Of a DNA stretch of 64,000 nt, positions 25,452 through 53,906 are shown one piece after another. The translations under genes and the position numbers were made by a program. The number at the start of each line of letters is the position of its first letter. Position 1 is the stretch's first letter. The notes under the pieces were generated by a model. The model was given only the letters and a program-made list of their open reading frames with translations, ran no database searches and had not been told where the DNA came from. Source of the DNA: Clostridiaceae bacterium (GTDB taxonomy: Bacteria; Bacillota; Clostridia; Saccharofermentanales; DTU023); NCBI GenBank assembly GCA_012838795.1, contig DUOO01000033.1, forward strand, positions 1 through 64,000, read 5' to 3'.

Positions 25452-25516
25452 TTGGTTAGTTAAGTTTTTTTAATTAAAATCTTAAAACCATATAATTGTA
25501 TCTGAAAGGACAGCAA

Positions 25517-25744
25517 ATGATTTTTAATGAAGTCAAAACTGTATTAATTGAAGTAATGGGCGTTGCTGAAGCAGATGTAGTTGAAAGCGCATATCTGATT
25601 GATGATTTGGGTGCAGATTCATTGGATGCAGTTGAAATATCGATTGCTTTACAAGATAAATTCGATATTGAAATTGAGGACGATGATATCCTGAGAATGC
25701 AAACAGTGGGTGATATTGTTGGTTATATCGAACAACACAATTAA
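25517..25744 (+). CDS. acpP: acyl carrier protein
   Basis: 75-residue acidic four-helix protein that carries growing acyl chains on phosphopantetheine attached to Ser35 of GADSLDAVE. AAAGGA at 25505-25510 sets the start at ATG 25517, removing seven residues of an upstream TTG-started frame. It is the first gene of the fab/acc operon and the only ACP in the window, so it may also serve the later ketosynthases. A hairpin overlaps its stop codon. Confidence 0.95.
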   Translation: MIFNEVKTVLIEVMGVAEADVVESAYLIDDLGADSLDAVEISIALQDKFDIEIEDDDILRMQTVGDIVGYIEQHN

Positions 25745-32314: not shown

Positions 32315-32329
32315 AATAATTTAACGAAG

Positions 32330-32369: not shown

Positions 32370-32387
32370 AAAGGAAGGTTAATTTAA

Positions 32388-33125: not shown

Positions 33126-33138
33126 AAGGAAGGGCAGT

Positions 33139-34377: not shown

Positions 34378-34411
34378 TTAAAAAAATTATAATTATTAAG
34401 GAAAGAGAAAA

Positions 34412-34858
34412 ATGTCAATCATCTTGGAAAGTTTTGAAATAGAAGAGATTCTACCACATCGTTATCCCTTTATTTTAGTAGATCGGATTATTGATGGTGA
34501 ATGGGGAGAATTTGCGGTTGGAATAAAGCAAGTGACTCGGAATGAATGGTTTTTTGACGGACACTTTCCCGGCAAACCGATTATGCCCGGAGTTTTACAA
34601 CTCGAGGCAATGGCACAAGTTGGCGGAGTAGCTTTTCTAGGTTTACCGGAAAATAAAAATAAACTTGCTCTGTTTTTAGGTGTGAAAAATGCACGCTTTG
34701 CAAAACCTGTTTTGCCCGGTGATACACTGATGATTCGTACAGAATTTACCGGAAAGAAATTGAATATCGGTTTTGCGATAGGAGAAATACGTTCAGAGGA
34801 TCAGTTGGTCTGTAAAGTAGAAATGATGTTTTCCATAGTTGACAGCGACCGAATCTGA
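34412..34858 (+). CDS. fabZ: 3-hydroxyacyl-ACP dehydratase
   Basis: 148-residue hotdog-fold dehydratase. LPHRYPFILVDR, catalytic His51 in GHFPGKPIMPG and Glu65 in LQLEAMAQ. It removes water from 3-hydroxyacyl-ACP; no separate FabA/FabM is seen in the window. Last gene of the main fab run before the regulator. Confidence 0.96.
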   Translation: MSIILESFEIEEILPHRYPFILVDRIIDGEWGEFAVGIKQVTRNEWFFDGHFPGKPIMPGVLQLEAMAQVGGVAFLGLPENKNKLALFLGVKNARFAKPVLPGDTLMIRTEFTGKKLNIGFAIGEIRSEDQLVCKVEMMFSIVDSDRI

Positions 34859-34887
34859 TTGATTTAATAAAAATTGCTTAATAAAAT

Positions 34888-34915
34888 TTGATTAAAATAA
34901 TTAAAAAGATACAAT
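34888..34915 (+). promoter_or_regulatory. promoter of the fabT-like regulator gene
   Basis: TTGATT (34888-34893), 16-base spacer, TACAAT (34910-34915), about 70 bases before the gene. The -35 region TTTGATTAAAATAATTAAA is partly symmetrical and could be an autoregulatory site. Fair support only. Confidence 0.5.
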
Positions 34916-34983
34916 GAATGAAATAAATATACACAGATGATATATAAAATATATAAATATATATATAGATGAGGGCTGTTAAA

Positions 34984-35466
34984 ATGCGTAATACTGAAAT
35001 GAAAGATAATATTGCTCAAGATCTTTACGAAATTTACCGAAAAGTAAAATTATATACTTTCCATAGAATATTCCGTAAAATAACCACCAAAGAAGAAGAT
35101 TCTTTAACAGCGCTTGAAGTACTGAGCCTGGATTTGATTCAAGGGATGGAAAATCCGACTCAAACGGAATTTGCCAGATATATTAATGTTTCAATGCCGA
35201 ATGCGACATACAAGTTAAACAGTCTTGAGAAAAAAGGCTATATAACTAAAGAGCAATCGACTGAAGACGGCAGAATTTTTTATTTAAGAGTAACGGAAAA
35301 AACAAAGGAACTTCTCGGAACAAGTGAAAGGTATCTGGATATTCTCTACAGAAGACTTCAACGCGAATTCAAACCGGAAGAACTAAAAGTTTTTGAAAAG
35401 GTGATCCATGCTGTTTCCAATGACTTGATGGTTGAATTGGATCGTTACGTAGAATATAGAATATAA
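34984..35466 (+). CDS. fabT: MarR-family regulator, FabT-like
   Basis: 160 residues from ATG 34984, chosen because GAGGG at 34971-34975 lies 8 bases upstream; ATG 34969 would overlap that site. A winged-helix with PTQTEFARYINVSMPNATYKLNSLEKKGYI as recognition helix and EDGRIFYLRVTEK as wing. MarR proteins at fab loci (FabT) repress fatty-acid genes with acyl-ACP as co-repressor; the role here is inferred from position. It separates the main fab operon from the second acc set. Confidence 0.85.
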   Translation: MRNTEMKDNIAQDLYEIYRKVKLYTFHRIFRKITTKEEDSLTALEVLSLDLIQGMENPTQTEFARYINVSMPNATYKLNSLEKKGYITKEQSTEDGRIFYLRVTEKTKELLGTSERYLDILYRRLQREFKPEELKVFEKVIHAVSNDLMVELDRYVEYRI

Positions 35467-35637: not shown

Positions 35638-36069
35638 ATGAATAAACAAGATATAAAAGAACTGATACAACAATTTGATCAAAGTGATTTGACAGATTTC
35701 GTGTTGAAGAATAAAGACGTGGAATTAAAATTTGCAAAAATAGTTACAACTGTTGATCGCGAAGATATGCAATCAAAACGAGATGTACCTATTAGTAGTA
35801 TATCCGATAACAACAAGCCGCAACAAAATGAGAAATTGGTCGAAGTAAGATCACCGATGGTGGGAACTTTTTACTCTTCGGATAAACAAGACGGAAAACC
35901 GTTTGTTCAAGTCGGTGATTTAGTCCAAGAAGGGCAAGTATTGTGTATTATTGAAGCGATGAAGACGATGAATGAAATTGTATCTCCGGTTGAGGGAAAA
36001 GTAATTTCAATAGTTCCGAGTAATGGTGAATTTATTGATTACGATAAAGTCATTATAGTTTTGGAATAA
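35638..36069 (+). CDS. accB: biotin carboxyl carrier protein, copy 2
   Basis: 143 residues with the same plan as the first copy: N-terminal NKQDIKELIQQFDQSDLTDF, variable linker, biotinyl domain VRSPMVGTFYSS with Lys109 in EAMKTMNEI. Unlike copy 1 it keeps the canonical Glu-Ala before MK. TATAAT-like hexamers lie at 35582 and 35588 with TTGCAT at 35563, but spacing (13 or 19) is not ideal. The stop overlaps accC copy 2 as TAATG. Confidence 0.92.
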   Translation: MNKQDIKELIQQFDQSDLTDFVLKNKDVELKFAKIVTTVDREDMQSKRDVPISSISDNNKPQQNEKLVEVRSPMVGTFYSSDKQDGKPFVQVGDLVQEGQVLCIIEAMKTMNEIVSPVEGKVISIVPSNGEFIDYDKVIIVLE

Positions 36070-37484
36070 TGAAAATGTTTCATAAAATACTGGTTGCTAA
36101 CAGAGGTGAGATAGCAGTTAGAATAATACGCACTTGCAGAGAAATGGGTATTGATACTGTTGCTGTATTTTCAACTGCTGATCGCGATTCTCTTCATGCT
36201 CAATTTGCTACAGAAGCTTATTGTATTGGCGGACCGGCATCAAAGGACAGTTATTTGAATATGCAAGCAATTATGACGGTTGCGCTTGAGACCGGATGTG
36301 AGGCGATACATCCGGGATATGGCATGTTGGCTGAAAATCCTTACTTCGCAGATATGGTCAATCAGGTCGGGTTGAAATTTATCGGACCTTCCGGAGACAC
36401 AATCAGAGCTTTAGGAGATAAATCCAACGCACGACTTTTAATGTCGGAAGCCAATGTGTCGGTACCGCCGGGTTCCAATGGTGTTTTACAAGACGAAACT
36501 CAGGCTCTGGCTGTAGCTGAACAGATCGGTTATCCTGTTTTGCTAAAAGCCTCTGCCGGAGGCGGCGGTCGCGGGATGAGACTGGTTGAAAGGTCAGAAG
36601 ACATGGTCAGATTATACTATGAGGCGATGTTAGAGGCCGAGACTGCTTTCGGTGATAATTCTTTATACATAGAAAAATTGATTGAAAATCCCAAGCATAT
36701 AGAGTTTCAGGTTTTAGTTGATCAAGCCGGCAATGCCATTCATCTCGGTGATCGTGATTGTTCATGGCAGAGAAGGAGACAAAAAGTAATAGAAGAAACT
36801 CCTTGTCCGATCTTATCCGATGAACAGAGAAAAAGTATGGGGGAAGCTGCGATACGTGCAATCAAAGCTGTTAATTATGAAGGTGCCGGTACGGTTGAAT
36901 TTGTATTGGCTGAAGACGGAAATTTTTATTTCATAGAGATTAACACCAGAATTCAAGTTGAACATCCGATTACCGAAATGGTTACAGGTATAGACATTGT
37001 GCGTGAACAAATCAGAATTGCTCAAGGTGGAAATCTATTGTTAACTCAAGCTGATGTCAAAATCAATGGCCATGCTTTTGAATGTAGAATTAATGCAGAA
37101 AAACCTTCTGATAACTTCAGAGCAAGTCCGGGGGTGATAGATGATTTTATTATGCCGGGCGGGCGTTCAGTCAGAATTGATTCAGCGATCTATCCGGGTT
37201 GTAAAATCAGTCACCATTATGACTCCATGATCGTAAAAGTTATTGTTCACGGGAACAGGCGTAGTGATGCTATTCGAAGAATGCGCCGCAGTTTAGAAGA
37301 AACAATAATCAATGGTATAGATACGAATATCGGTTTATTATACGTTTCATTATTCGACCAGGATATGATCAGGGGTTCTTATAATACTTCCACTTTAGAA
37401 TCGCATATGGATGAGATTTTGAAATATGAAAAAATCTTTCGCATATCGGAAAATCAAGATTTTGAAATAATTACCGGTAATTAA
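36069..37484 (+). CDS. accC: biotin carboxylase, copy 2
   Basis: 471 residues, closely similar throughout to the copy at 26278 (shared ANRGEIAVRI, KASAGGGGRGMR, HLGDRDCSWQRRRQKVIEE, NTRIQVEHPITEMVTGIDIV). All ATP-grasp and biotin-site motifs are intact, so it should be active. It carries a slightly longer C-terminal tail. Supplies carboxybiotin to the second AccDA. Start overlaps accB copy 2; ATG at 36075 is an alternative. Confidence 0.95.
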   Translation: MKMFHKILVANRGEIAVRIIRTCREMGIDTVAVFSTADRDSLHAQFATEAYCIGGPASKDSYLNMQAIMTVALETGCEAIHPGYGMLAENPYFADMVNQVGLKFIGPSGDTIRALGDKSNARLLMSEANVSVPPGSNGVLQDETQALAVAEQIGYPVLLKASAGGGGRGMRLVERSEDMVRLYYEAMLEAETAFGDNSLYIEKLIENPKHIEFQVLVDQAGNAIHLGDRDCSWQRRRQKVIEETPCPILSDEQRKSMGEAAIRAIKAVNYEGAGTVEFVLAEDGNFYFIEINTRIQVEHPITEMVTGIDIVREQIRIAQGGNLLLTQADVKINGHAFECRINAEKPSDNFRASPGVIDDFIMPGGRSVRIDSAIYPGCKISHHYDSMIVKVIVHGNRRSDAIRRMRRSLEETIINGIDTNIGLLYVSLFDQDMIRGSYNTSTLESHMDEILKYEKIFRISENQDFEIITGN

Positions 37485-37501
37485 GAAAGGGCTTACATTT
37501 A

Positions 37502-39196
37502 ATGAAAGAATCTTTTGATATTAGACGGGAACAATTGAAAGAATCCGGCAAATATACAAAGTTGCGCAGTCCGACGAAAAAGAAAAAAATTTCGGAAAAG
37601 ATTTTCACCCAGTGTCCTGGTTGTAAGCAATATATCTACGATAAAATTTTGAAAGAGAATCTTTATGTTTGTCCTGATTGTGGCAAATGTTTAAGAATTG
37701 GAACAAAAACAAGATTTGAATTAACACTTGATCCGAGTTATGAACTAATTGATGAACTTGCAGTTTTTCAAGATCCGATTCAATTTGCCGGTTACCAAAA
37801 AAAATGGGAAAACAATCAAAAAAAAGCGGGAGTTGATGAAGCTATTACTTTTGCCAGGGGGACTATCAAAGGAGAACCGGTAATTGTAGGCGTTATGGAT
37901 TGCAATTTCATGATGGGGTCAATGGGCAGCATCGTAGGAGATAGAATTATCAAAGCATTTGCTAAAGCTACTCGGGAAAAGTTACCGGTGATTATTTTTA
38001 CTGCCAGCGGCGGAGCCAGAATGCAAGAGGCAATTATCAGCTTGATGCAAATGCGATATGTTTCTGAAGCGGTTGGCAAATTTCAAAAAGCTGGCGGTCT
38101 GTATATAACCGTGCTGACAGATCCTACAACAGGTGGTGTTACGGCCAGTTTTGCTTCACTGGGTAATATTATTTTAGCTGAGCCGAATGCTCTGATTGCT
38201 TTTGCCGGACCAAGAGTAATTGAAGAAACTATCCAGCAAAAATTACCCAAAGGATTTCAACGTGCGGAACATCTTTTAGAACATGGCTTCGTTGATTCTA
38301 TAGTTCTGCGCAAAAACTTAAAAAACACTTTAAGCTTATTGTTAAAAATGCATAATCCGAAGCAGACAGAAGTAGACTTAACACAAATCTCAGGCAGGTT
38401 TTCAAAAAAACTAATTAAAAAAATGACCAACGAAGCTGAGGTTGATCCTGATAAACAGGTAATTTCATTTGATCGTGTTTTGAAAGCACGTGATCCAAAG
38501 CGTATCACACCCAGACAAGTCTTAAAATATCTTTGTGATGATATTTTTGAATTGAGCGGTGATCGTTTATATGCCGATGATCCTACAATTTGTGCCGGAA
38601 TTGCCAGACTGGGCGGATTACCTATAACATTTGTTTACACTAAAAAAGGTAAAGATCTGAAAAGTCAAATTAAATTACATTTCGGAATGCCGCATCCTGA
38701 AGGTTATCGTAAAGCAAGACGTTTAATGCAAGAGGCGGAAAACTTCGGCAGACCTATTTTAACAATTATCGACACTCCAGGAGCTTATCCCGGACTGGAA
38801 TCGGAAAACAGGGGAATGGGTGAGGCTATTGCCCAAAACTTACGATTTATGTCAGGTTTAACAGTGCCGACGATTGCGATAATTACGGGTGAAGCAGGCA
38901 GTGGCGGTGCAATTGCTTTAGCATGTACGGATAAATTGTTCATGTTGGAAAATGCAATTTATACTATTTTATCTCCTGAAGGTTTTGCCACAATTTTATG
39001 GAAAGATTCTGCAAAAGTAGAGGAAGCATCTGAGCAGATGAAGCTAACTGCTCACGACATGGTAGAACTTGAAGTTTGCGATCAAGTATTTCCGGATGAT
39101 TTAACAGGCTTGAAAGAGGCTCTGGCACAGACTTTTAATGAATTAATAAAAGAAAAACAAATGAGAAATGAGAGGAATCAATGGGAATTAAACTAG
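37502..39196 (+). CDS. accDA: fused AccD-AccA carboxyltransferase, copy 2
   Basis: 564 residues with the same beta-alpha fusion as copy 1. Zinc ribbon C-x2-C-x15-C-x2-C (about residues 38-60), FTASGGARMQEAIISLMQMRYV and TDPTTGGVTASFASLGN in the beta half, FGMPHPEGYRKARRLM, TIIDTPGAYPG and TGEAGSGGAIAL in the alpha half. The region joining the halves (about residues 290-325) differs most from copy 1. Its end overlaps fabH copy 2 by 16 bases. Confidence 0.95.
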   Translation: MKESFDIRREQLKESGKYTKLRSPTKKKKISEKIFTQCPGCKQYIYDKILKENLYVCPDCGKCLRIGTKTRFELTLDPSYELIDELAVFQDPIQFAGYQKKWENNQKKAGVDEAITFARGTIKGEPVIVGVMDCNFMMGSMGSIVGDRIIKAFAKATREKLPVIIFTASGGARMQEAIISLMQMRYVSEAVGKFQKAGGLYITVLTDPTTGGVTASFASLGNIILAEPNALIAFAGPRVIEETIQQKLPKGFQRAEHLLEHGFVDSIVLRKNLKNTLSLLLKMHNPKQTEVDLTQISGRFSKKLIKKMTNEAEVDPDKQVISFDRVLKARDPKRITPRQVLKYLCDDIFELSGDRLYADDPTICAGIARLGGLPITFVYTKKGKDLKSQIKLHFGMPHPEGYRKARRLMQEAENFGRPILTIIDTPGAYPGLESENRGMGEAIAQNLRFMSGLTVPTIAIITGEAGSGGAIALACTDKLFMLENAIYTILSPEGFATILWKDSAKVEEASEQMKLTAHDMVELEVCDQVFPDDLTGLKEALAQTFNELIKEKQMRNERNQWELN

Positions 39197-40110
39197 TTAG
39201 TGCAACACGCTATTTACCACAGGGAAAATTAACGAACTCAGATTTAGAAAAAATGGTAGAAACCAGTGATGATTGGATTAGACAAAGGACAGGTTTAGTT
39301 TCCAGAACAATGGCTGGTGATGAAACCATAACTGATATGGCAATCAAAGCTGCGCGAGAGTGTTTAGAAAAAATAGATAGAGAAATCATTGATAAGATTA
39401 AGCTGTTAATTGTGACTACAGCCTCTTATTTACAGGTTGTACCACATGTATCGGCAGCAATAGTTAAACCTATCGGTTTAGCAGAGGAGGTATTGGCTTT
39501 TGATATAAATTCGGGCTGTACTAGCTTTATTTATGCATTGGACATAGTTGAAAAATATCTTCTGAAAGACAAAGATCAATATGCATTAATAGTATCTTCA
39601 GATAAATTGAGTGATTATATTGACTATACGGATCGCGGCACCTGCATTTTGTTTGGCGATGCAGCTGCTGCTACATTATGGGCTTATGAAGAACAAAATG
39701 AGCAAATAGCAATACATAAAACACTGACGGCTCCTGATGTATTGTTCAGAGATGGTGATTATATTAATATGAATGGGAATGAAGTATTTAAATTTGCTGT
39801 TGGTAATTTACCTGAATTAATCTCAGATGTCTGCCGCAAAGCAAATGTAGATGTTTCAGAAGTCGATTTATTTTTGTTGCACCAAGCTAATGGCAGAATC
39901 ATTGAATCTGTAGCTAAAAAGTTTCGATCTGATGACAACCACTTCCCTGTAAGGTTCCAAAACATAGGTAACACCTCATCTGTCAGTCTGCCGATCTTGA
40001 TTACCCAAATGATAGACGAGGATAAATTGCAGAATGCAAGAAATATTATATTTGCCGGTTTTGGTGCCGGTTTAAGTTTAGGTGTAATCTTATTCAAAGG
40101 TATTAATTAA
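39181..40110 (+). CDS. fabH: 3-oxoacyl-ACP synthase III, copy 2
   Basis: 309 residues, clearly paralogous to the copy at 29447, with Cys113 (NSGCTSF), His234 (LLHQANGR) and Asn264 (IGNTSS) intact. AGAGG lies before the ATG. As last gene of the duplicated acc set and immediate neighbour of five divergent KAS III-like genes, it may be the ancestor or a functional partner of that cluster, possibly with different primer specificity from copy 1. Confidence 0.92.
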   Translation: MGIKLVSATRYLPQGKLTNSDLEKMVETSDDWIRQRTGLVSRTMAGDETITDMAIKAARECLEKIDREIIDKIKLLIVTTASYLQVVPHVSAAIVKPIGLAEEVLAFDINSGCTSFIYALDIVEKYLLKDKDQYALIVSSDKLSDYIDYTDRGTCILFGDAAAATLWAYEEQNEQIAIHKTLTAPDVLFRDGDYINMNGNEVFKFAVGNLPELISDVCRKANVDVSEVDLFLLHQANGRIIESVAKKFRSDDNHFPVRFQNIGNTSSVSLPILITQMIDEDKLQNARNIIFAGFGAGLSLGVILFKGIN

Positions 40111-40332: not shown

Positions 40333-41316
40333 ATGAATAATATGCTTGTAGATTTAAGAATTGAATCTGTCGGATTGGTTAAGCCCTCCATAGAGTATGA
40401 GTTAGACAAATCAGTTTTTGAAAAAACCGGAATAGAGAAAGTGAATATTTTTGATGATGAATATACAACTTCAAAAGCTGCAATTTGCTCAGCTAAAGAT
40501 GCATTAAAAAGAATTGATATGGCTGCATCCGATCTTGATCAGCTTATTTTTCAAAGTGAGGGCATGAGCGACTATCTGTATATGGACTCTTCAAAAACAA
40601 TAATGCTTGAAATAGGTGGCAGAGAATGCGGCAATATATACACCTATGATTTTTTCCGCGGAAATAACGGGATAATAGGCACTATATATTTAATTAATAA
40701 TCAACTTACAGGAAATCCTGAAATAAATTATAGCATGCTCTGTTCTTCGTTGTTATGGACATATCATTCAAAAAACAGACAGTTAGGAGATACTTATCTG
40801 GGTGACGGGGCAGGTGCGGTGATTCTTAGTTGCCGATCCGGGGGTTCCAGAGTTCTTGGTTTATCAACACTTTCTTTTAGTCAATATAATAAAATAACTG
40901 CTTTTAAAATCGGTGGCACAGTTAATGATATTAATGTCGCAGGAGTAAAAGCAGGAGATTTTATATACGATATTTTAGATTACGATCATCTAGCGAGTAT
41001 GAGAGAACAAATTGTTACCGGATCCTTAAAAGTAATATCTCAAGCTTTAAGCGAGTCTAATTTAAAAATGAAAGATATAGATGTAATTGGTATTTTAGGT
41101 TTTAAAAAAAATTACAATGCTAAGATTCTCAATGAAATTCTGGAAGGTCAAACCGTAATCGATCTTTTAAGCAAAAACGGATATCTGGGGTCAGTTGGTT
41201 TTTTCGCAGTAATAAATGAATTTTTATATAATGAAAAGTTTTCCAAAGGCGATATTTTGTTATTAATCATGATTGGGATGGATTACCGAATTGAAGCAAT
41301 GGTGGTGCGCAAATGA
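40333..41316 (+). CDS. KAS III-like protein lacking all catalytic residues (KS-A)
   Basis: 327 residues from ATG 40333, which has AGGGA 7 bases upstream; the frame is open to 40285 without a ribosome site. The thiolase fold is recognisable (YTTSKAAICSAKDALKRI, LGDTYLGDGAGAVILS, and C-terminal KGDILLLIMIG). The Cys position is Asn111 (FRGNNGII for NAGCSGF), the HQAN region reads GILGFKKN, and the GNTSS region reads GYLGSVG. All three catalytic residues are gone. By analogy to PqsB of the PqsBC heterodimer it could be a structural or substrate-shaping partner of another KS. First gene of the cluster; its stop overlaps the next start (ATGA). Confidence 0.8.
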   Translation: MNNMLVDLRIESVGLVKPSIEYELDKSVFEKTGIEKVNIFDDEYTTSKAAICSAKDALKRIDMAASDLDQLIFQSEGMSDYLYMDSSKTIMLEIGGRECGNIYTYDFFRGNNGIIGTIYLINNQLTGNPEINYSMLCSSLLWTYHSKNRQLGDTYLGDGAGAVILSCRSGGSRVLGLSTLSFSQYNKITAFKIGGTVNDINVAGVKAGDFIYDILDYDHLASMREQIVTGSLKVISQALSESNLKMKDIDVIGILGFKKNYNAKILNEILEGQTVIDLLSKNGYLGSVGFFAVINEFLYNEKFSKGDILLLIMIGMDYRIEAMVVRK

Positions 41317-42326
41317 AAATAGAAAATTGTCCGAAACAGCAACGTACACACGTTGGTATTGCCGGTATAGGTTTGTATTTTCCTGAAAAAACTGTTGATA
41401 CACGAGTAGAGGCGAAAATTCATAAATTGCCTGAGAATGTTTATAAAAATATTGGAATTGACAGAATATATGTCCCGAACCAGAAAGAGCAACCGTCTTA
41501 TATGGCATATCACTCATCTAAAGAGGCTCTCCTAGACTCTGATACGGATCCTGAGGACATTGATTTGATAATCGTTTCGTGTTTCAAAAATGATTTTTAC
41601 CATTGGGCTATGTCTGATTGGTTATGTGATAGATTAGGGTTTAAAAATGCCTTGACAATAGAAATCAAAGGCGGTTGCGGGGCATTTTACCAGGCTATCG
41701 AGTTTGGAGTTAACCAGATCAATGGTTCAAAAAATATAAAAACTGTAATGGTAGTAAGTTCGGAGAGATTATTCGGATATGGCTGGCCTTCATTTATGAG
41801 TGCCGGATCCCAAGCTGTTATCTTAAAGGAAAATTCTGATAAGTATGAGTTTCTAGGTTTTTCTACTTATAACTATTTAAAATACCATGCTATGGCATAT
41901 ATACCCTATGGGGGAACAGCGCAACCTTTTCAAAAAAGCCCCGAATGGAAGGGTGAAGATTTCACGAGTAATGTTGTTGTTGATAGAGATATGTATTTTG
42001 ATCATATAAAACCGTATGTTTTTGATAATTTTCGTTATGTAACAAAACAACTTCTTGACAAAACCGGAGTGAATATTGAAGAAATAGATTTTTTTGTGAC
42101 TTTAATTCAACAAGATAATTTCGAAAAAAGAGTGCAAACTTCCATAGGAATACCGGAAGTTAAAAATGCAGCTGAATTCAAACGCAAACTTGGTCATTTC
42201 AGCGGAGCGGATCCATATGTCTTAATCAAGTTATCACAAGAATCAGGTTTGATAAAAAAAGGAGATTTAATATTAAATATAGGGTTAGGCGGGGTTGCAT
42301 GGTATGCAACTTTAATTCGTTATTAA
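41313..42326 (+). CDS. divergent KAS III-like ketosynthase with Cys only (KS-B)
   Basis: 337 residues. Thiolase-fold condensing-enzyme relative with nucleophile Cys122 in IKGGCGAFYQA. The His position of HQAN is Gln266 (LIQQDN) and the Asn position is His295 (GHFSGADP). YIPYGGTAQPF is shared in form with KS-D. Possibly an acyl-transferring or heterodimeric partner enzyme rather than a standard decarboxylating KAS III. The start overlaps the KS-A stop, so the two are probably made together. Confidence 0.8.
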   Translation: MKIENCPKQQRTHVGIAGIGLYFPEKTVDTRVEAKIHKLPENVYKNIGIDRIYVPNQKEQPSYMAYHSSKEALLDSDTDPEDIDLIIVSCFKNDFYHWAMSDWLCDRLGFKNALTIEIKGGCGAFYQAIEFGVNQINGSKNIKTVMVVSSERLFGYGWPSFMSAGSQAVILKENSDKYEFLGFSTYNYLKYHAMAYIPYGGTAQPFQKSPEWKGEDFTSNVVVDRDMYFDHIKPYVFDNFRYVTKQLLDKTGVNIEEIDFFVTLIQQDNFEKRVQTSIGIPEVKNAAEFKRKLGHFSGADPYVLIKLSQESGLIKKGDLILNIGLGGVAWYATLIRY

Positions 42327-42343
42327 GAGAGAGTGAGTGAATT

Positions 42344-43321
42344 ATGATTGGAATAAGTGGACTGGGTAATTATGTTCCTGAAACTAAATGTTTAGTGTCT
42401 GATATATGTAAAGATTTAAATACTGATGAATTGAGAAAAATAGGTGTGGAATCTGTCCCGCGTGAAACACAAAACACAGCGGCTGAAATGGCGACAATTG
42501 CATCCAAGAGAGCTTTGGATGATGCCGGAATCAAACCGGTAGATTTGGATCTGATTATTAATACTCAAGCCGGTTTGCATGATCATTTATTATGGCAAGT
42601 ATCTGCCAAAATACAGTCTGATTTGGGAGCTGGTAATGCTAATTTTGTGGATTTGTATCAGGGTTGCAGCGGTTTTATGTTTGCCTTGATTTTAGCAAAA
42701 CAAATATTAAGTGCCACAGAGACTAATTCTCATATTTTAATTAATACCGGTGAGAAATGGAGTGAGTCTATCCAAGGTTACAGGACAAATAAAATAGTAT
42801 TTGGAGAAGCTGCTGTTGCAGCAGTTGTTGATAATAAATCAACCGGAAATTTTATCTTAGGACATTCTCTTTTAAGTGATGGAAGCCTGCATGATATTTC
42901 TATGATGAGTATGGGAACATCAAATCCGCCGAGACTGATAAAAAATAAAGAGGATTATTTCTATAGTGTAAGGAATTTAGAAAAGGCTAAAAAAAATCTG
43001 ATTCCCGTTAACATTGAACGTTTTCATCGTGTTGGTTTAGAAGCTGTTAAAAACAGCAATTTAACCTTTGAAGATATCTCAAGCATAATTTTTCCAAGTG
43101 TCGGTTTTGGTCTTTTCGAGAAAGTCATGGCTACTTTCGAATTTCCGTTAGAGAAGACAAACTTTCGTTATGTCAAACATACCGGTGATTGCGGATCTGT
43201 AGGAGAGATGCTTTCCTACCACCGTATGATTAATGATCAGTTAATTAAAAAAGGCGACAATGTTTTGATTTTGTCTCAAGGTGCCGGTTTTACTTGGTCT
43301 GCGATAGTTATTGAAGTTTAG
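42344..43321 (+). CDS. divergent KAS III-like ketosynthase with Cys only (KS-C)
   Basis: 325 residues. MIGISGLGNYVPET start, Cys108 in YQGCSGFMFAL, and the C-terminal KKGDNVLILSQGAGFTWSAIVIE are condensing-enzyme-like. The HQAN segment is replaced by FPSVGFGL, so no His is aligned, and the Asn is Asp282 (HTGDCGS). A thioester could form on the Cys, but classical malonyl decarboxylation is unlikely without partner residues. 17 bases after KS-B, 12 before KS-D. Confidence 0.8.
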   Translation: MIGISGLGNYVPETKCLVSDICKDLNTDELRKIGVESVPRETQNTAAEMATIASKRALDDAGIKPVDLDLIINTQAGLHDHLLWQVSAKIQSDLGAGNANFVDLYQGCSGFMFALILAKQILSATETNSHILINTGEKWSESIQGYRTNKIVFGEAAVAAVVDNKSTGNFILGHSLLSDGSLHDISMMSMGTSNPPRLIKNKEDYFYSVRNLEKAKKNLIPVNIERFHRVGLEAVKNSNLTFEDISSIIFPSVGFGLFEKVMATFEFPLEKTNFRYVKHTGDCGSVGEMLSYHRMINDQLIKKGDNVLILSQGAGFTWSAIVIEV

Positions 43322-43333
43322 ACGGAGATTAGA

Positions 43334-44323
43334 ATGGAAATATATTCACAAATAAAAGGATTAGGCTTTTATGTACCTGAAAGAATAATTGAGAACAGTT
43401 ATTTTGAATCATATCTTGATACTACTGATAAGTGGATTGTTGAAAAAATAGGAGTTAAAGAGAGAAGAGTTGCTTCAAGTCAACAAGTAACATCGGATTT
43501 AGCTGCAGAAGCCTGTGTTTCAGCTTTGACTAAGGCATCCGTTCACGCTTTAGATATTGATTGTATAATTTTTTCAACTAATACACCGGATAACCTAAGC
43601 CCGCAAACTTCTGTAAAAATTCAAGAGAAGATAGGTGCAAAAAATGCATTTGCTTTTGACCTGAGGGTTGGAGGATGTCCCGGTCTTGTTTATGCAATTT
43701 CAATTGCTGATCAGTTTATAAAATCCGGTAAATGTAAAAATGTTCTGGCAGTTTCAGCGGAGATCAATTCACGAGGAATTGATTGGCAAGATCGTTCTAC
43801 TGCTGTTATTTTAGGTGATGGTGCCAGTGCCGTGGTTCTTACGGCAACCACGGATACAGATTGCCGTATTATAGATACTCAATTATTTACAGACCCTAAG
43901 GGATACTATGATGCTTATATTCCTGCAGGAGGAACTGCTGAACCATTTTCTGAAAGTACTTTTCAAGATCGACGACATTATTTCAAAATGAACGGAAGAG
44001 AAATTTACAAATTTGCCGTTGATGTTTTCCCGGCTTCTGTAAGCAAAATAGTTAAAGATAATGGATTTTCAATTCAAGATATTGATTTTATTATTTCTCA
44101 TCAAGCCAACATAAACATAATTAAGGAATCGATGTACAAGCTAGGCATTAGCATGACGAAAACTTATACGAATTTGAAAAAGTATGGAAATACCAGCGGA
44201 GCATCTGTTGGTATCGCTTTTGCAGAGGCTGTAGACAAAGGATATATATCACGTGGTGACTTACTGATTCTGGTTGCATATGGGGCAGGTTCAGGTTGGG
44301 GGACTATATTAATAAAATATTAG
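43334..44323 (+). CDS. KAS III-like ketosynthase with intact triad (KS-D)
   Basis: 329 residues. Complete triad: Cys115 (VGGCPGLVYA), His256 (SHQANINII) and Asn286 (YGNTSGAS). YLDTTDKWIVEKIGVKERRVA and IPAGGTAEPFSES resemble KAS III enzymes of secondary metabolism more than housekeeping FabH. GGAG lies upstream of the ATG. Predicted to catalyse Claisen condensation of an acyl thioester with a malonyl thioester. The GGCPG active-site loop is shared with KS-E. Confidence 0.87.
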   Translation: MEIYSQIKGLGFYVPERIIENSYFESYLDTTDKWIVEKIGVKERRVASSQQVTSDLAAEACVSALTKASVHALDIDCIIFSTNTPDNLSPQTSVKIQEKIGAKNAFAFDLRVGGCPGLVYAISIADQFIKSGKCKNVLAVSAEINSRGIDWQDRSTAVILGDGASAVVLTATTDTDCRIIDTQLFTDPKGYYDAYIPAGGTAEPFSESTFQDRRHYFKMNGREIYKFAVDVFPASVSKIVKDNGFSIQDIDFIISHQANINIIKESMYKLGISMTKTYTNLKKYGNTSGASVGIAFAEAVDKGYISRGDLLILVAYGAGSGWGTILIKY

Positions 44324-44332
44324 GAGTTAATC

Positions 44333-45166
44333 ATGATAAAAGAAAGAAACATCGGAGTAGTTGGGTTAGGTTTAATGGGCAAAGGATTGGTCGTAGAACT
44401 TGTTCAGCACGGTTATTTTGTTACGGCTGTCAGAAGAAGGAAAAATGATAACGGGTTAGAGAATTATCTTAATTATATAGCGTGTAAAAACCAAGATGCC
44501 AGTATGAAAAATGAGATTTTACAGAATATAGAACAAACCACGGATATATCCAAATTACGTGATTGTGACCTGGTAATAGAGTGTATCAATGAAGATATAG
44601 CAGCTAAGTCAGAAATTTTTCAGATTCTTGATGAGATCTGCATGCCCGAAACGGTATTAGCCTCAAATACCTCAAGTTTATCGATTGAAGAAATTTCTTC
44701 CGGATGCCGTAGAAACGATAAGATATTAGGAATTCATTTTATGTCTCCGGTATCTCGTATGAAATTGGTTGAACTTATCCATACAGACAAAACCTCGGTT
44801 AAAACTTTGGATAATTGCAAAAGATTTATTTCCAGCTTAGATAAAGAATATGTTGTTGTACAAGATAGTCCGGGATTCATTGTTAGTCGATTAGGTGCAG
44901 TTTTAATTAATGAAGCAATGAATATTTTATCAGAAGGAGTTGCCAGTGAAACCGATATAGATAAAGCTGCCAAATTAGGTATGAATTTTCCGCTGGGACC
45001 ATTAGAGTTAGCAGATAATGTTGGTCTGGATATTTGTTTAAATGTGTTAAAGTCACTATTTAGATACTACGATAACGAAAAATATGCACCTGACGCAATA
45101 CTCGAAATGAAAGTTGTATCCGGGAATTTAGGGAAAAAATCAGGGAATGGATTTTATAATTATTAA
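44333..45166 (+). CDS. 3-hydroxyacyl-CoA dehydrogenase (HBD-like)
   Basis: 277 residues: N-terminal Rossmann domain GVVGLGLMGKGLV, LASNTSSLSIEEI, GIHFMSPVSRMKLVELI with the catalytic His (usual form HFFNP), and a C-terminal helical domain with LGMNFPLGPLELADNVGLD. Such enzymes interconvert 3-oxoacyl- and 3-hydroxyacyl-CoA with NAD(H). Between two intact KS genes it suggests CoA-bound intermediates. HFMSP for HFFNP hints at an altered substrate. TAGGAG upstream; 9 bases after KS-D. Confidence 0.87.
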   Translation: MIKERNIGVVGLGLMGKGLVVELVQHGYFVTAVRRRKNDNGLENYLNYIACKNQDASMKNEILQNIEQTTDISKLRDCDLVIECINEDIAAKSEIFQILDEICMPETVLASNTSSLSIEEISSGCRRNDKILGIHFMSPVSRMKLVELIHTDKTSVKTLDNCKRFISSLDKEYVVVQDSPGFIVSRLGAVLINEAMNILSEGVASETDIDKAAKLGMNFPLGPLELADNVGLDICLNVLKSLFRYYDNEKYAPDAILEMKVVSGNLGKKSGNGFYNY

Positions 45167-45186
45167 TTATTTAGAAGGTGAATACT

Positions 45187-46200
45187 ATGAGAAGAAGTGC
45201 AGGAATTGCCGGTTTGGGATTTTATGTTCCTGAGAGGATAATGTATAACGATGAACTTGGTGACTATTGCGGCATTAAAGGAAGCTGGATTGAAGAAAGA
45301 TTAGGAATTAAAATGCGCAGAATCGCAAGTCAGGATCAAGCGTTATCCGACCTTGCTTATTACGCTGCCTCAAGGGCTATGGATCAAGCTGAGGTACATG
45401 CGAAACAAATTGACTTAATAATAGTATGTGCGATCAGTCATGATAAAAGAGCTCCTGCCACTGCCGCTATTCTTCAAAAAAGACTGGGAGCAATCAATTC
45501 CGCCGCTTTTGATGTTAATGTCGGAGGTTGTCCAGGCAGTTCTTATTCCTTGGTTATAGCCCAACAGTTTGTGGAAAATGGCATGTATGATACTGTATTG
45601 GTTATTTCAGGTGAGATATATTCAAAAATTGTAGATTTTTCAGACAGAAATGTTGCACCGTTTTTCGGAGACGGTGTAGGAGCGGTTATTCTTAAATCTT
45701 GCAGAGAGAACAAAGGAATAATTTCTTCCGTTTTGGGTGCAGATGGCGAAGGCGGAGCAGATAAAATAGTTTGCGAAGGAGGATCCCGAGTTTCTATAAA
45801 TCTGAAAAATTTTGAAAGTGGTAAATTAACCAAAATAGAGATGGATAACAAGGCTGTTTGGAAATTCGGCACACAGATATTTCCGAGAGTAGTTGAGTTG
45901 GTTTCTAATAAAGCAGGTGTAGATAAGGAAAATATAGATTGGATAATTCCTCATCAGGCAAATATTAATATGATTAAAAAAGGAATTAAAACCTTGGGTT
46001 TGTCTATGGATAATGTATATACCAATATGGATAGATATGCCAACACAGGTGGCGGATCAGTTTTAATAGCTCTTGCAGAAGCATTTGAAAAAGGTTTAAT
46101 AAAATCTGATGAATATGTCGTTTTAGCTTCATTCGGGGCAGGTTTTTCTTGGGGAGCTTTACTAATGAGATGGTGCAGTAAGGATGATTTTATTATTTAG
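45187..46200 (+). CDS. KAS III-like ketosynthase with intact triad (KS-E)
   Basis: 337 residues from ATG 45187, with AAGGTG 6 bases upstream (the GTG at 45178 is part of that site). Cys115 (VGGCPGSSYS), His256 (PHQANINMI) and Asn286 (YANTGGGS) fall at the same residue numbers as in KS-D, so the two are close relatives. DVNVGGCPG and AFDLRVGGCPG match. The region before His (about residues 196-228) differs from KS-D and lacks the GGTAEPF loop, suggesting a different acyl specificity. Confidence 0.87.
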   Translation: MRRSAGIAGLGFYVPERIMYNDELGDYCGIKGSWIEERLGIKMRRIASQDQALSDLAYYAASRAMDQAEVHAKQIDLIIVCAISHDKRAPATAAILQKRLGAINSAAFDVNVGGCPGSSYSLVIAQQFVENGMYDTVLVISGEIYSKIVDFSDRNVAPFFGDGVGAVILKSCRENKGIISSVLGADGEGGADKIVCEGGSRVSINLKNFESGKLTKIEMDNKAVWKFGTQIFPRVVELVSNKAGVDKENIDWIIPHQANINMIKKGIKTLGLSMDNVYTNMDRYANTGGGSVLIALAEAFEKGLIKSDEYVVLASFGAGFSWGALLMRWCSKDDFII

Positions 46201-46212
46201 CAGGTGTGACTT

Positions 46213-46953
46213 ATGAATTTGGTAAATAAAGTTGCTTTGATAACCGGCAGTTCTTCAGGCATTGGTGAGGCAACAGCTCGCTTGTTTGCTAAAGAAGGAG
46301 CGACAGTTGTACTAGTAGCCAGGGATATAGAAAAACTTAAAAACATTGAGAAAACAATCAATAAGAGTGGGGGGACTGCATTAGCTTTACAACTGGATGT
46401 AAGTGATAGTGATCAAGTAATTAATGTAGTAAACTCAGCAATACAAAAATATGGGAAAATAGACATACTGATAAATAATGCCGGGATAACCAGAGATTCT
46501 TTTATAGAAAATATGACTGTCGAAATGTGGGATGACGTTATTTCGGTCAACTTGAGCGGCGCTTTTTATATGATTCATGCCGTATTACCACAGATGATTA
46601 AACGAAAATTCGGCAACATTATTAATATGAGTTCCATCGCTGCGAGAAGAGGAGCGGTTACACAGGCGAATTATTCTGCTTCTAAAGCGGGTATTATAGG
46701 ACTTACTTTGACCTTGGCTCAAGAGCTGGGGAAAAAAGGTATTACGATCAATGCAATTGCACCTGGATTGGTAAATACTAAAATGGTTGAAAAAATTCCC
46801 GAAAAAATAGCTGAAAAATGGCTGAAAATAATTCCGGTCGGGCGTTTTGCAACCCCTGAAGAAATAGCACATCTTTGTTTATATTTAGTAAGTGAGCATG
46901 GACAATATATCAACGGATCCGTGATAGATATTAATGGTGGTCTAATCGGCTGA
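46213..46953 (+). CDS. FabG-like short-chain reductase
   Basis: 246 residues: TGSSSGIGEATA, NNAG, Ser in INMSSIAAR, Tyr and Lys in YSASK, and a C-terminal YINGSVIDINGG. This is a second FabG-type 3-oxoacyl reductase, separate from fabG at 32388. With the HBD-like gene it gives the cluster two ketoreduction or oxidation enzymes, so different chain positions or carrier types may be handled. 12 bases after KS-E. Confidence 0.9.
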   Translation: MNLVNKVALITGSSSGIGEATARLFAKEGATVVLVARDIEKLKNIEKTINKSGGTALALQLDVSDSDQVINVVNSAIQKYGKIDILINNAGITRDSFIENMTVEMWDDVISVNLSGAFYMIHAVLPQMIKRKFGNIINMSSIAARRGAVTQANYSASKAGIIGLTLTLAQELGKKGITINAIAPGLVNTKMVEKIPEKIAEKWLKIIPVGRFATPEEIAHLCLYLVSEHGQYINGSVIDINGGLIG

Positions 46954-46988
46954 TTCGTGTTTATAAATTAGAGAAAGTGAGAGACTGT

Positions 46989-47879
46989 ATGAGTTATCTA
47001 GTTAAAATGGAAAACGTTAAAAAGACTTTTGGAAATTTTAATGCCCTTGACGGAATAAACCTTAATGTTAATCCGGGAGAAATTCACGGATTTATCGGTC
47101 CGAATGGTGCAGGTAAAACTACCACGATCCGTATTTTATTAGGATTTTACAAAGCTAACGGCGGAAAAGCATCAGTATTTGACTATGATTGTTGGAAAGA
47201 CTCAATCAAAATTCATCAGAAAATTTCATATGTACCCGGAGATGTAATGTTATGGGGAAATTTAACTGGTGGGGAAGTTATTGACATGTTAAGTAATTTA
47301 GGGAGAAGAAAGATATCCGAAAAAAAGAAGAATAGACTTATAGATAATTTCAACCTTGATATAAATAAAAAATGCAGAAACTACTCCAAAGGGAATCGTC
47401 AAAAAGTTGCATTAATTAGTGCGTTCTTATCAGATGCGGAACTCTTAATATTAGATGAACCCACATCAGGTCTTGATCCTTTGATGGAACAGGTTTTCCA
47501 AGAGTTTGTTCTTGAAACGAAACAACAAGGCAAAAGCATCTTATTGTCAAGCCATATTTTATCAGAAGTAGAAAAAACGTGTGATGTGGTGAGTATAATA
47601 AAAGAAGGGAAAGTCATAGAAAGCGGTGAATTGTCAAAGTTGCGCCACCTTACGCGTATGAATTTTATTGTTCATTCTAAAGAAAATCTCGGGAAACTTT
47701 CTGACAGTAAAGGAGTAATTAATTATTCATTTGATGAGCAGACTAAGTCAGCAACATTTCAAGTCGAACCGAGCAATGTAAATGCTGTTTTAGCTTTGTT
47801 AAGTAATTACAAATTAGATAATCTAGAGGTTTATCCTCAAACTCTTGAAGATTTATTTTTAAATTATTATGAAAACTAA
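46989..47879 (+). CDS. ABC exporter ATPase
   Basis: 296 residues. Walker A GPNGAGKTT, Q loop VPGDVMLWGNLTGGE, signature YSKGNRQK (variant of LSGGQ), Walker B LLILDEPTSGLDP, switch His in LLSSHILSEVEKT, and a C-terminal domain typical of DrrA/CcmA-type drug exporters. ATG 46989 is preferred to GTG 46977. 35 bases after the reductase and followed by its permease, so it likely exports the cluster product. Confidence 0.93.
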   Translation: MSYLVKMENVKKTFGNFNALDGINLNVNPGEIHGFIGPNGAGKTTTIRILLGFYKANGGKASVFDYDCWKDSIKIHQKISYVPGDVMLWGNLTGGEVIDMLSNLGRRKISEKKKNRLIDNFNLDINKKCRNYSKGNRQKVALISAFLSDAELLILDEPTSGLDPLMEQVFQEFVLETKQQGKSILLSSHILSEVEKTCDVVSIIKEGKVIESGELSKLRHLTRMNFIVHSKENLGKLSDSKGVINYSFDEQTKSATFQVEPSNVNAVLALLSNYKLDNLEVYPQTLEDLFLNYYEN

Positions 47880-47899
47880 AGAGGAGAGGTTGAAGTTTC

Positions 47900-49507
47900 A
47901 TGAAAAAACAATATTTTGCTAATACAGGCAATTGTGTACAATTTATATTAAGACAATATAAATTTTTGTTATTGATATTTGTTTTGTCAATTTTGGCTTT
48001 TACTATTTTTTCTGCACAATCATACTTAGAGCTTTATCCCGATGCGATTGAGCGTCAATTAATAGCGGAGACAATGAAAAATCCTTCTTTAGTTGCTATG
48101 TTGGGACCTGTTTACGGATCCGAAAATTATACAATAGGGGCCGTTCTGTCAAATCAGTCATTACTGATAACTATTGTAGTTGTCGCTATTTTCAACGTGC
48201 TGTTTGTTGTAAAACATTTGGATTACAATGAGAACATGTCTATTTCTGAACTGTTTAATTCATTTCCAATTGGTCGCAGTGCTAAATTGTTAGCTTTAAT
48301 TATTATCATTTTTATTCTGAATTTTTTATTAATTCTGGGATTGGTAATCGGATTACTTGTTTTGGGAATAGATAGCATTGATTTTAACGGCAGCATTCTT
48401 TACGGAAGTATATTAGCATTAAGCGGGTTTTTTTTCGGATCTCTGACGATGGTCATCAGCCAGTTATTTTCTAATAAAAGGCTGGTTATGGGATTATCTT
48501 TTGGTTATATAGGTTTTTCGTATTTATTAAGAGCAGTTGGGGATATACAAAATAACGTTGTTTCATATTTGTCCCCAATCGGTTTATTGCAAAAATCCCA
48601 AGTTTTTGTAAAAAATTATTGGTATTCTTGTATAATTATTTTAGTCATAACAATTATTCTTATATTATTAGCATTATTTTTATCTAAAGAGAAAGATTTA
48701 GGTTCCGGATTAATAAAGTTAAATGGTTTTGTTAAGAGAAAAAATATTATTATTAAATCCCCTGTGGGACTGGCTCTTCAAATTCAAAAGTCCACCCTTA
48801 TTGTTTGGTTAATAGTTATGATTATTTTGGGATTTAGCTATGGATCAATTGTTGGAGATTTAGGAGTTTATTTAGAAGACAATAATTTTCTGCGCGACTT
48901 CTTTGTGAATAGTGGGGATTCCAGCATTGAGTTGGAATATACATTTGTAGTGATTAAACTAATGGCTATACTTGGGATTGTACCTGCTCTTTTATCAATA
49001 ATAGGGATTTGGAGAGAAGAGAAGTCGTTTAGATTAGAACATATTATTGCCAAACCTATATCGCGGTTAAAGTTGTTTTATAGTTTCACCATACCTTCCT
49101 GTATATTTTCACTATTAAATCAGCTCTGTTTTGCCGGAGGATATTGGTATTCTGCAAATGAATATATATCTTCGACGATCAGTTTATCTGATTTCATGGT
49201 GGCTGTTATGTCATATTTCCCGGCAATTTTGTTTTTCATAAGCCTTTCATTATTATTTATAGGAATTAAGCCAAACTTATTAATTGTCAATTGGTTAATA
49301 TATGGAGTATTCTCGTTTTTAACAATTTTCGGTCAAGCTTTGGGGTGGTCCGAGGATGTCTTGAATATTTCTATTTTCAATCAAATTGCCCGATATCCGG
49401 TAGAAGATTTTAACTTTCAAAATATGTATATTATTTTAAGTTGTGCAATAATTTTTAATGTTATCGGATTCTTGTTTTATAGAAAAAGAGATCTTTTTAA
49501 TCAATAA
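47900..49507 (+). CDS. ABC-2 type exporter permease, polyketide-exporter-like
   Basis: 535-residue membrane protein with about 12 hydrophobic segments, roughly two six-helix halves in one chain. The N-terminal half contains MLGPVYGSENYTIGAV, the second half RLEHIIAKPISRLKL. This size and layout resemble the TnrB3/COG3559 exporters of polyketide antibiotics. GGAGAGG upstream. It is the last gene of the KS operon and gives the product an exit route. Confidence 0.82.
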   Translation: MKKQYFANTGNCVQFILRQYKFLLLIFVLSILAFTIFSAQSYLELYPDAIERQLIAETMKNPSLVAMLGPVYGSENYTIGAVLSNQSLLITIVVVAIFNVLFVVKHLDYNENMSISELFNSFPIGRSAKLLALIIIIFILNFLLILGLVIGLLVLGIDSIDFNGSILYGSILALSGFFFGSLTMVISQLFSNKRLVMGLSFGYIGFSYLLRAVGDIQNNVVSYLSPIGLLQKSQVFVKNYWYSCIIILVITIILILLALFLSKEKDLGSGLIKLNGFVKRKNIIIKSPVGLALQIQKSTLIVWLIVMIILGFSYGSIVGDLGVYLEDNNFLRDFFVNSGDSSIELEYTFVVIKLMAILGIVPALLSIIGIWREEKSFRLEHIIAKPISRLKLFYSFTIPSCIFSLLNQLCFAGGYWYSANEYISSTISLSDFMVAVMSYFPAILFFISLSLLFIGIKPNLLIVNWLIYGVFSFLTIFGQALGWSEDVLNISIFNQIARYPVEDFNFQNMYIILSCAIIFNVIGFLFYRKRDLFNQ

Positions 49508-49739: not shown

Positions 49740-49814
49740 TGGTGACCCTAAGGGGAATCGAACCCCTGATTCCGCCGTGAGAGGGCGGCGTCTTGACCGC
49801 TTGACCATAGGGCC
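49740..49814 (-). tRNA. tRNA-Glu (CTC anticodon)
   Basis: Read on the minus strand: acceptor GGCCCTA pairs with TAGGGTC. The D arm contains GGTCAAGCGGTCAAGAC, and the anticodon stem CCGCC/GGCGG encloses CTCTCAC (anticodon CTC, codon GAG). The T arm has GGTTCGATTCC, and CCA is encoded. All four arms can be folded by eye. Confidence 0.93.
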
Positions 49815-52598: not shown

Positions 52599-53906
52599 AT
52601 GAAACGAATTACGATTGTTTTACTGATTTTTGCTCTGTTAGCAATGACTGCTTGTGGTGGGAAAGGTACACTGGAAATATCATTCACAAATGATACAGAT
52701 AAGGACCTTAAAACTATTCATATTTGTGAATATGGCTCAGACTCTATCGGTTCCGATTTGCTTGGAGCTACAACCATTCTAAAAGCGGGCGGTACATTGA
52801 AATTAAAACTGGAATCTGTAGCAGAAAGTGGTATTTATGACATTCACTGTGAAGATGATGATGACACATGGCTGACCCAGCGTGTTCCAATTTCAAAAGG
52901 TACTTCTTTATCAGTGTATTTAAACGATGACGGAATACCTGTTGTTGTGGTGACTGACAGTAAGGGAAATACATCTGAGATTTTGGGAGAATTCGAAGGA
53001 CTAGAACCTGTGCCGTCAACGCGAGAGACTACGACTGCAACTACAACAAAAGAGACAACTGCTGCAACTACAACAAAAGAGACAACTGCAGCAACTACAA
53101 CAGAAGAGACTACGACTGCAACTACAACAAAAGAGACAACTGCAGCAACTACAACAAAAAAAGTCATTCAGGCACCGTCGGCAGATGACCCGCTTGATAT
53201 GACTTATAACTTGAAATCATTCCCCGGTGAAATTCTCATACCTTATCCGTCTACAATGAGGGTAATTCGTGAGTCAGAAACAACACCTACAATATGGCTA
53301 GATGCTCTAAACGATCCGGACTATGATAATAATATCTGTGTAGATTTCATTCAAATCAACAACTTTGATAAATATTTTACTTCCGGTGAATCACAAGCAC
53401 GGGTTGGGTTGGATAAACTTTTTGCTGCCGTTATTGATGTCAGCTATAGTGATTATTATATTCAATCTACCGCAAGTGAATTCGTGAACGGCGGAACTTA
53501 TTATGGACTCAGACATTATATGTGGTTCAGTGGTAACTATTGGGGGGATGAGATACCTATACGCGCCGTGTTGGAGTTACGCTATTATGGTCCGACAGGT
53601 TATTTGTTGGCCGTTTTAACAACAACAGCGGATGGTGCCATTGAAAGATATTTTTCAGTAGCATCGAAGATAGCTGATGCTATTCCGCTTGGTGGTGATT
53701 GGAGTACAGGAGTATCAAATTCCGACAGCTGGTCTGATCCAGGTGATTGGGACTATGATCCGTGGTCTGATGCGGGTGATGGTGATGGTTTTGATTATAG
53801 TCCGTATGAGATTGATCCTTGGAGCGATCCCGGTGATGGTGAAGACTTTGATTATGATCCGTACGAGATTGATCCTTGGAGTGACCCCGGCGACACGGGT
53901 GACTGA
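52599..53906 (+). CDS. repeat-rich surface lipoprotein, probably cut short by a nonsense codon
   Basis: 435 residues. A lipoprotein signal ends in MTAC (Cys19). A small beta-like domain (about 25-135) follows, then a Thr/Glu/Ala-rich spacer of 9-residue repeats (TTTKETTAA type, about 143-188), a globular domain (about 195-365), and an acidic tail of 19-residue repeats beginning DPWSDPGDG. TGA at 53904-53906 falls where the repeat has Trp before SD. The frame then continues SDLGDGEDY for 14 codons to TAG at 53951, so the original product was probably 450 residues. AGGAGG precedes the ATG. Function unknown; the anchored, spacer-and-tail layout suggests a cell-surface role. Confidence 0.78.
   Translation: MKRITIVLLIFALLAMTACGGKGTLEISFTNDTDKDLKTIHICEYGSDSIGSDLLGATTILKAGGTLKLKLESVAESGIYDIHCEDDDDTWLTQRVPISKGTSLSVYLNDDGIPVVVVTDSKGNTSEILGEFEGLEPVPSTRETTTATTTKETTAATTTKETTAATTTEETTTATTTKETTAATTTKKVIQAPSADDPLDMTYNLKSFPGEILIPYPSTMRVIRESETTPTIWLDALNDPDYDNNICVDFIQINNFDKYFTSGESQARVGLDKLFAAVIDVSYSDYYIQSTASEFVNGGTYYGLRHYMWFSGNYWGDEIPIRAVLELRYYGPTGYLLAVLTTTADGAIERYFSVASKIADAIPLGGDWSTGVSNSDSWSDPGDWDYDPWSDAGDGDGFDYSPYEIDPWSDPGDGEDFDYDPYEIDPWSDPGDTGD
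53025..53162 (+). repeat. 27-bp in-frame tandem repeats (Thr-rich spacer)
   Basis: Four whole 27-base units at 53040-53066, 53067-53093, 53094-53120 and 53121-53147, with partial units on each side, coding for nine-residue TTTKETTAA-like repeats. Differences are few, so copy number may change by slippage without frameshift. Confidence 0.9.

Follow-up and report, generated by a model that had tools for sequence, protein, structure and literature searches.

Several described systems employ proteins of the ketoacyl-acyl carrier protein (ACP) synthase III (KAS III) fold in pairs or as acyltransferases. In PqsB/PqsC of Pseudomonas aeruginosa, a KAS III protein without catalytic residues pairs with an active one (PMC4807248), and LstA/LstB is also a KAS III heterodimer (PMC12141560). 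ChlB3 and CerJ are KAS III-fold acyltransferases with a Cys-His-Asp triad (C113/H296/D301 in ChlB3; PMC9573744), and a Cys/His/Asp triad is also present in the amide-forming AfcL (PMC12186527). Here we compare with these systems a gene block of a Clostridiaceae bacterium (assembly GCA_012838795.1), located in the first 64,000 nucleotides of contig DUOO01000033.1, a stretch hereafter called the window. The block encodes five KAS III-like proteins (KS-A to KS-E), two reductases, an ATP-binding cassette (ABC) transporter pair and a second acetyl-CoA carboxylase set. We consider it rather probable that this block, at ~35.6-49.5 kb, is a dedicated unit that makes and secretes a small compound of an acyl or polyketide-like kind.

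Nine open reading frames (ORFs) lie at 40333-49507, all on the forward strand and without internal stops: KS-A (40333..41316), KS-B (41313..42326), KS-C (42344..43321), KS-D (43334..44323), a 3-hydroxyacyl-CoA dehydrogenase-like protein (HBD, 3HCDH; 44333..45166), KS-E (45178..46200), a FabG-like ketoreductase of the short-chain dehydrogenase/reductase (SDR) family (46213..46953), a DrrA/NarA-like ABC transporter ATPase (46989..47879, alternative GTG start at 46977) and a NarB-like ABC permease of 535 aa with multiple hydrophobic segments (47900..49507). The intergenic spacing from KS-A to the permease is -4, 17, 12, 9, 11, 12, 35 and 20 bp. A preliminary description of this DNA had reported nine genes in one direction with gaps of 35 bases or less, and both statements were confirmed with every ORF intact; the several overlaps it mentioned came down to a single one of 4 bp (ATGA), between KS-A and KS-B. 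For KS-A, GAGGGAAG was found upstream of the ATG at 40333, with an alternative start at 40285. Seven members of the KAS III C-terminal family occur in the whole genome, all of them located at 30.1-46.2 kb of the window, a stretch of 17 kb, whereas the same-genus genomes carry one FabH in the corresponding operon; this clustering exceeds what chance would give.

The active sites were aligned to those of Escherichia coli FabH (Cys112, His244, Asn274). The Cys-His-Asn triad was complete in KS-D (Cys115-His256-Asn286) and KS-E (Cys118-His259-Asn289), two canonical FabH-type proteins that share 40% identity and exceed the TIGR00747 cut-off of 292 bits (333 and 303 bits, respectively). The remaining three proteins lacked it. 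None of the catalytic residues is present at the three FabH sites of KS-A (Asn111/Lys259/Tyr284); KS-C retains Cys108 alone, with Pro251 and Asp282 at the His and Asn sites; and KS-B, which reads C/L/H, places His295 where FabH has Asn274, with Asp300 at +5 completing the alternative triad Cys122-His295-Asp300. Among the PRK06840-type relatives, all 31 that carry His at the Asn274 site share this His and Asp. Five KAS III-like proteins were thus recovered as first described, although not as five synthases, given that only D and E are canonical, while the triad of B is that of an acyltransferase and the sites of A and C have degenerated. Together with the FabH encoded by the second carboxylase set (see below), the block holds six KAS III-type proteins that, judging from their residues, span at least three catalytic kinds. 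The stretches at the FabH Phe87 site are YLYMD, FYHWA, HLLWQ, NLSPQ and KRAPA in KS-A to KS-E, respectively, none with Glu; the site itself holds Ser in KS-D and Ala in KS-E, which we take to mean a possibly roomier acyl pocket.

The Pfam ACP_syn_III_C cut-off was passed by KS-B and KS-C, whereas KS-A remained below it (22.9 vs 26.6 bits) and matched PRK06840 at 8e-30. PRK06840 was the best NCBIfam match of these three proteins, at 104-162 bits against a cut-off of 315, and their exact family placement is uncertain. Structural models of KS-A and KS-B, built from a 43-sequence alignment, were confident (predicted local distance difference test scores of 90.7 and 89.1) and displayed the KAS III fold over the whole chain (KS-A, Z 34.9, 2.3 A, 310 residues; KS-B, Z 37.2, 2.5 A, 318 residues). 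ChlB3 was among the top structural matches of both models, and was also the top Protein Data Bank sequence match of KS-A.

Directly upstream of KS-A, at 35638-40110 and on the same strand, lies a second acetyl-CoA carboxylase set with its own FabH. It consists of accB2, for a biotin carboxyl carrier protein (35638..36069; TIGR00531, 118.7 bits, cut-off 115.2), accC2, for a biotin carboxylase (36075..37484; TIGR00514, 636.6 bits, cut-off 626.5), accDA2, for a fused carboxyltransferase (37502..39196; TIGR00515, 327.6 bits, cut-off 317.45), and fabH2, whose product has Cys113-His234-Asn264 (39181..40110; PRK09352, 284 bits, cut-off 249); the curated cut-offs for the carrier protein, AccC and AccD were therefore all surpassed. 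Two accB-accC-accDA-fabH sets were detected only in this genome, whereas five same-genus genomes carry a single set in this operon. The second copies of accC, accDA and fabH are 67-73% identical to the first (72% for accC), and acc2 branches inside the genus in a tree rebuilt without the distant outgroup, an earlier tree with that outgroup having failed to resolve. Given this identity and branching, the set is a paralogue that has diverged from the host's own copies. The preliminary description is corrected here on precursor supply, which is not lacking, a complete second acetyl-CoA carboxylase and a FabH being part of the same block. The unit is also larger than the nine genes reported; the upstream set had been overlooked, and so had the lack of the entire block in a relative.

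That relative is the same-genus genome G003, in which fabT is followed after ~110 bp by tRNA-Glu and then by a Na/phosphate symporter, whereas in the window fabT and tRNA-Glu(ctc) (49740..49814, reverse strand), the right border of the block, are 14.2 kb apart. The stretch at ~35.5-49.7 kb is absent from G003, with flanking genes identical in kind, and for this reason acc2-fabH2, KS-A to KS-E, the HBD-like gene, the SDR gene and the ABC pair are treated as one block. The block may have been gained here or lost in the relatives. The tRNA-Glu border showed no integrase and no convincing attachment repeat, scans for promoters and terminators gave chance level only, and a common operator for the upstream regions of the fatty-acid synthesis (FAS) operon, acc2 and KS-A did not rise above shuffles.

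The two reductases corresponded to those first proposed, with matches to the 3HCDH family and the FabG-like SDR family. The HBD-like protein retains the His/Glu dyad, while the Asn of the PGF[VI]VNR motif is replaced by Ser and HFFNP reads HFMSP, changes that suggest an altered substrate; in the SDR the catalytic motifs (Asn-Ser-Tyr-Lys) are complete. The reading of the last two genes as an ABC exporter was also supported, with a DrrA-like ATPase and a permease that had no match in Pfam or NCBIfam and that aligned by tblastn with NarB-type ABC permeases at 30% identity over 97-100% of the length (E 2e-44). NarAB confers polyether ionophore resistance (PMC7010723) and resembles the pair of the block in being a two-gene ABC system, with an adjacent DrrA-like ATPase and homology over the full-length permease; the differences are the identity of 30% and the position of the block's pair at the end of a biosynthetic-looking operon.

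PqsBCD is like the block in having several KAS III-like genes in a row and, as proposed for the block, a small secreted product, and the residue-less KS-A, the counterpart of PqsB, adjoins the cysteine-bearing KS-B with the ATGA overlap. Nevertheless, neither the anthranilate-CoA ligase PqsA nor a PqsE-type thioesterase has a counterpart among the block ORFs, the Cys-His dyad of PqsC has no third member, in contrast to the Cys-His-Asp triad of KS-B, and the block adds up to five proteins with their own carboxylase, reductases and exporter. Identity with PqsBCD was ruled out by the missing ligase and PqsC-type dyad. LstAB and OleA, likened to the block as KAS III heterodimers of two divergent proteins (23% identity for LstAB), depend on a catalytic Glu near the Phe87 site (OleA E117) that is present in none of the five KS proteins, and neither an OleC/LstC acyl-CoA ligase nor an OleD-type reductase is encoded in the block; without glutamate and ligase, this identity was also ruled out. 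A type II polyketide synthase (PKS) needs a FabF-type ketosynthase/chain-length-factor pair and a dedicated ACP, whereas the block has KAS III types only and no ACP, and this candidate was rejected as well.

The pattern of CerJ, ChlB3 and AfcL is matched by KS-B, with Asp at +5 from His, at ~18% sequence identity and with the difference that those enzymes serve PKS or nonribosomal peptide synthetase pathways. The same Cys-His-Asp triad is found in the PRK06840-type KAS III of Bacillota, whose clusters carry importers of the branched-chain amino-acid type, suggesting uptake and breakdown. These PRK06840-type genes were recurrent in many Bacillota (loci L072-L091, e.g. L078:6837-10220 and L073:7996-13632), next to such ABC importers, CoA-transferase-like genes, alpha/beta hydrolases and SDRs, and in some loci with a second KAS III of the Cys/Thr/Tyr type, an arrangement suggestive of a so far uncharacterised pathway for uptake and breakdown. 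No gene set like that of the block was described in the literature searched, in agreement with the original statement that five such proteins in one operon fit no known fatty-acid, alkylquinolone, OleABCD or resorcinol pathway; the block resembles a KAS III-based pathway, in a combination that we did not find described there.

The reading of the block as one biosynthesis and export unit draws on features computed directly, namely the tight packing of its genes on one strand, the KAS III fold of the confident KS-A and KS-B models, the split of active sites (C-H-N in D and E, C-H-D in B, degenerate in A and C), the acc2-fabH2 set that abuts the KS genes and is unique to this genome within the genus, and the absence of the block between fabT and tRNA-Glu in G003. 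It is further backed by the PqsB/PqsC and LstA/LstB precedents for a residue-less partner and a heterodimer, by the relationship of the exporter to NarB, and by a distant metagenome-assembled contig (L095, 139-6946) in which KS-D-like, KS-E-like and SDR genes stand in a row. In the profile scan of genome contigs with KS-E and KS-D, this was the only contig with two KAS III genes among the matches listed, and its protein groups with KS-E in the tree (SH-aLRT 93). The trio stands there beside an aldehyde dehydrogenase, a class-V aminotransferase, DUF169 and a FlK-type thioesterase.

From these features we infer a possible order of reactions, together with the KS pairings, the use of host ACP, the export and the product class. 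The second acetyl-CoA carboxylase would provide extra malonyl-CoA, which host FabD would load onto host ACP, and FabH2, KS-D and KS-E, with their Cys-His-Asn triads, would carry out decarboxylative condensations on that carrier. Reduction of the 3-oxo group would be performed by the FabG-like SDR and probably also by the HBD-like enzyme with its altered substrate site, and in some cycles the last steps may fall to FabZ and FabK, encoded in the adjacent operon. KS-B may act as an acyltransferase that passes the chain to a hydroxyl, an amine or a carrier, and probably does so in a heterodimer with KS-A, which lacks the catalytic residues and is encoded by the overlapping gene; KS-C would be a second non-canonical partner, plausibly of KS-D, and the NarAB/DrrAB-like pair would export the lipophilic product. 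Only tentatively do we propose that the carbon-chain assembly line is built purely from KAS III-fold proteins, with condensing enzymes, an acyltransferase, two catalytically reduced partners, a dedicated carboxylase and an exporter of its own.

Several observations weigh against such a unit. The block is at present a singleton, which is its main weakness: the gene set did not turn up a second time in overlapping sets of 59 relatives (searched with KS-C), 188 same-order (KS-A), 391 same-class (KS-B), 398 same-phylum (KS-A) and 37 further genomes (KS-A), and therefore no conserved gene order backs a single pathway. Matches outside this genome were at most ~30% identical, and the neighbourhoods read around them held FabH or PRK06840-type genes in other contexts. 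The co-occurrence in other genomes on which the preliminary description had made its proposal depend was seen for the KS-D/KS-E/SDR trio of the distant contig, and not for the whole set in any genome searched, an outcome that counts in part against the proposal. Neither an ACP nor a thioesterase nor an acyl-CoA synthetase is found among the block ORFs, so that carriers would be shared with fatty-acid synthesis or the intermediates would be CoA-bound. The ABC pair is present without KS genes in genome G017, and for that reason could serve an unrelated self-protection. A 222-bp gap separates fabH2 from KS-A, and given this gap acc2 and the KS genes may be transcribed separately. Finally, the KS-A, KS-B and KS-C branches are very long, at 2.6-3.7 changes per column.

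These long branches, together with the catalytic residues lost in KS-A and KS-C and the lack of an orthologous set in the genomes searched, would also be expected from a KAS III family in decay, in which D and E would be redundant copies of FabH, and the other three KS proteins drifting remnants that share no pathway. We regard this as improbable, considering that every ORF is intact, full length and tightly spaced, that the fold models of KS-A and KS-B are confident, and that KS-B retains a complete alternative triad, which is not a random loss. Less credible still is an assembly or binning artefact uniting unrelated sequence: the genome is in 63 contigs and the set was not found elsewhere, but the block lies within a single 129-kb contig, both its flanks are syntenic with relatives, its GC and third-position GC contents are those of the neighbouring genes, and acc2 itself derives from the genus.

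A more serious competitor, though still an unlikely one in our judgement, is that the block serves to tailor lipids of the cell itself. The additional KAS III proteins and the second carboxylase would then furnish alternative starters for fatty acids of membrane or surface lipids, and the ABC pair would be a flippase or an unrelated resistance pump. The block directly follows a complete type II FAS operon with a FabT-like regulator, acc2-fabH2 and the host set are paralogous, and a same-genus surface-polysaccharide locus carries three KAS III genes, two SDRs, FabD and two ACPs. However, the FabH triad that plain alternative starters need is missing in three of the five KS proteins, an HBD-like enzyme and a NarB-like permease are unusual in fatty-acid synthesis, and the same-genus genomes manage without the block. 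The polysaccharide locus (G004, L032:810-13875) is like the block in its KAS III genes interleaved with SDRs; it differs in having its own ACPs and FabD-like acyltransferase, C-H-N in all three KAS III proteins, a sugar-polymer setting and no ABC pair, and it is not orthologous. Its content suggests acyl decoration of a sugar polymer.

The FAS operon (25496-35466) comprises acpP, accB, accC, accDA, fabH, fabK, fabD, fabG, fabF, fabZ and the FabT-like regulator, with fabK, fabD, fabF and fabZ named by sequence resemblance. Its acpP (25496..25744, forward strand; PF00550), conserved in the same-genus genomes, is the nearest possible carrier and lies outside the block. As further carriers the genome has a housekeeping ACP, encoded immediately ahead of rnc-smc, and a small carrier within a membrane-acyltransferase locus, which agrees with the earlier view of an operon without a carrier of its own. 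Elsewhere in the window, at 21115-25393, a gene for a lipoprotein precedes a transporter set that resembles an energising module (T, fused A-A and S components) and is conserved in the same-genus genomes. Between two tRNA-Pro genes, 52599-53906 encodes a predicted lipoprotein in which TTTKETTAATTT and DPWSDPGD recur as degenerate repeats.

Other arrangements of KAS III genes were encountered in the searches. One locus (G522, L207:9493-19901) had the order KAS III, ACP, KAS III, AMP ligase and a large PKS-like protein, and paired KAS III matches were seen in several genomes of the same family. Plasmid matches viewed in context (Staphylococcus epidermidis, P. megaterium and B. finegoldii) were lone KAS III or ABC genes, such as the KAS III gene of S. 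epidermidis plasmid pSE-12228-05 (L092:13022-14002), which has blaZ and transposition genes as neighbours, and viral contigs searched with KS-B and KS-C gave no match.

If the block is indeed a biosynthesis and export unit, this small bacterium of Firmicute type would produce a lipid or polyketide for export, using enzymes that may escape cluster-finding tools that look for FabF-type ketosynthases or megasynthases, and the second carboxylase set would be a useful signal in searching for further clusters of this kind. An assembly built only from KAS III proteins, should it exist, would form a class of polyketide/fatty-acid-like synthesis apart from type I-III PKS, PqsBCD and the Ole/Lst systems. 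On the reading of the block as a biosynthesis and export unit, a single operon would also display the KAS III fold divided into condensing, acyl-transferring and non-catalytic roles, and the role of degenerate KAS III subunits would become directly testable.

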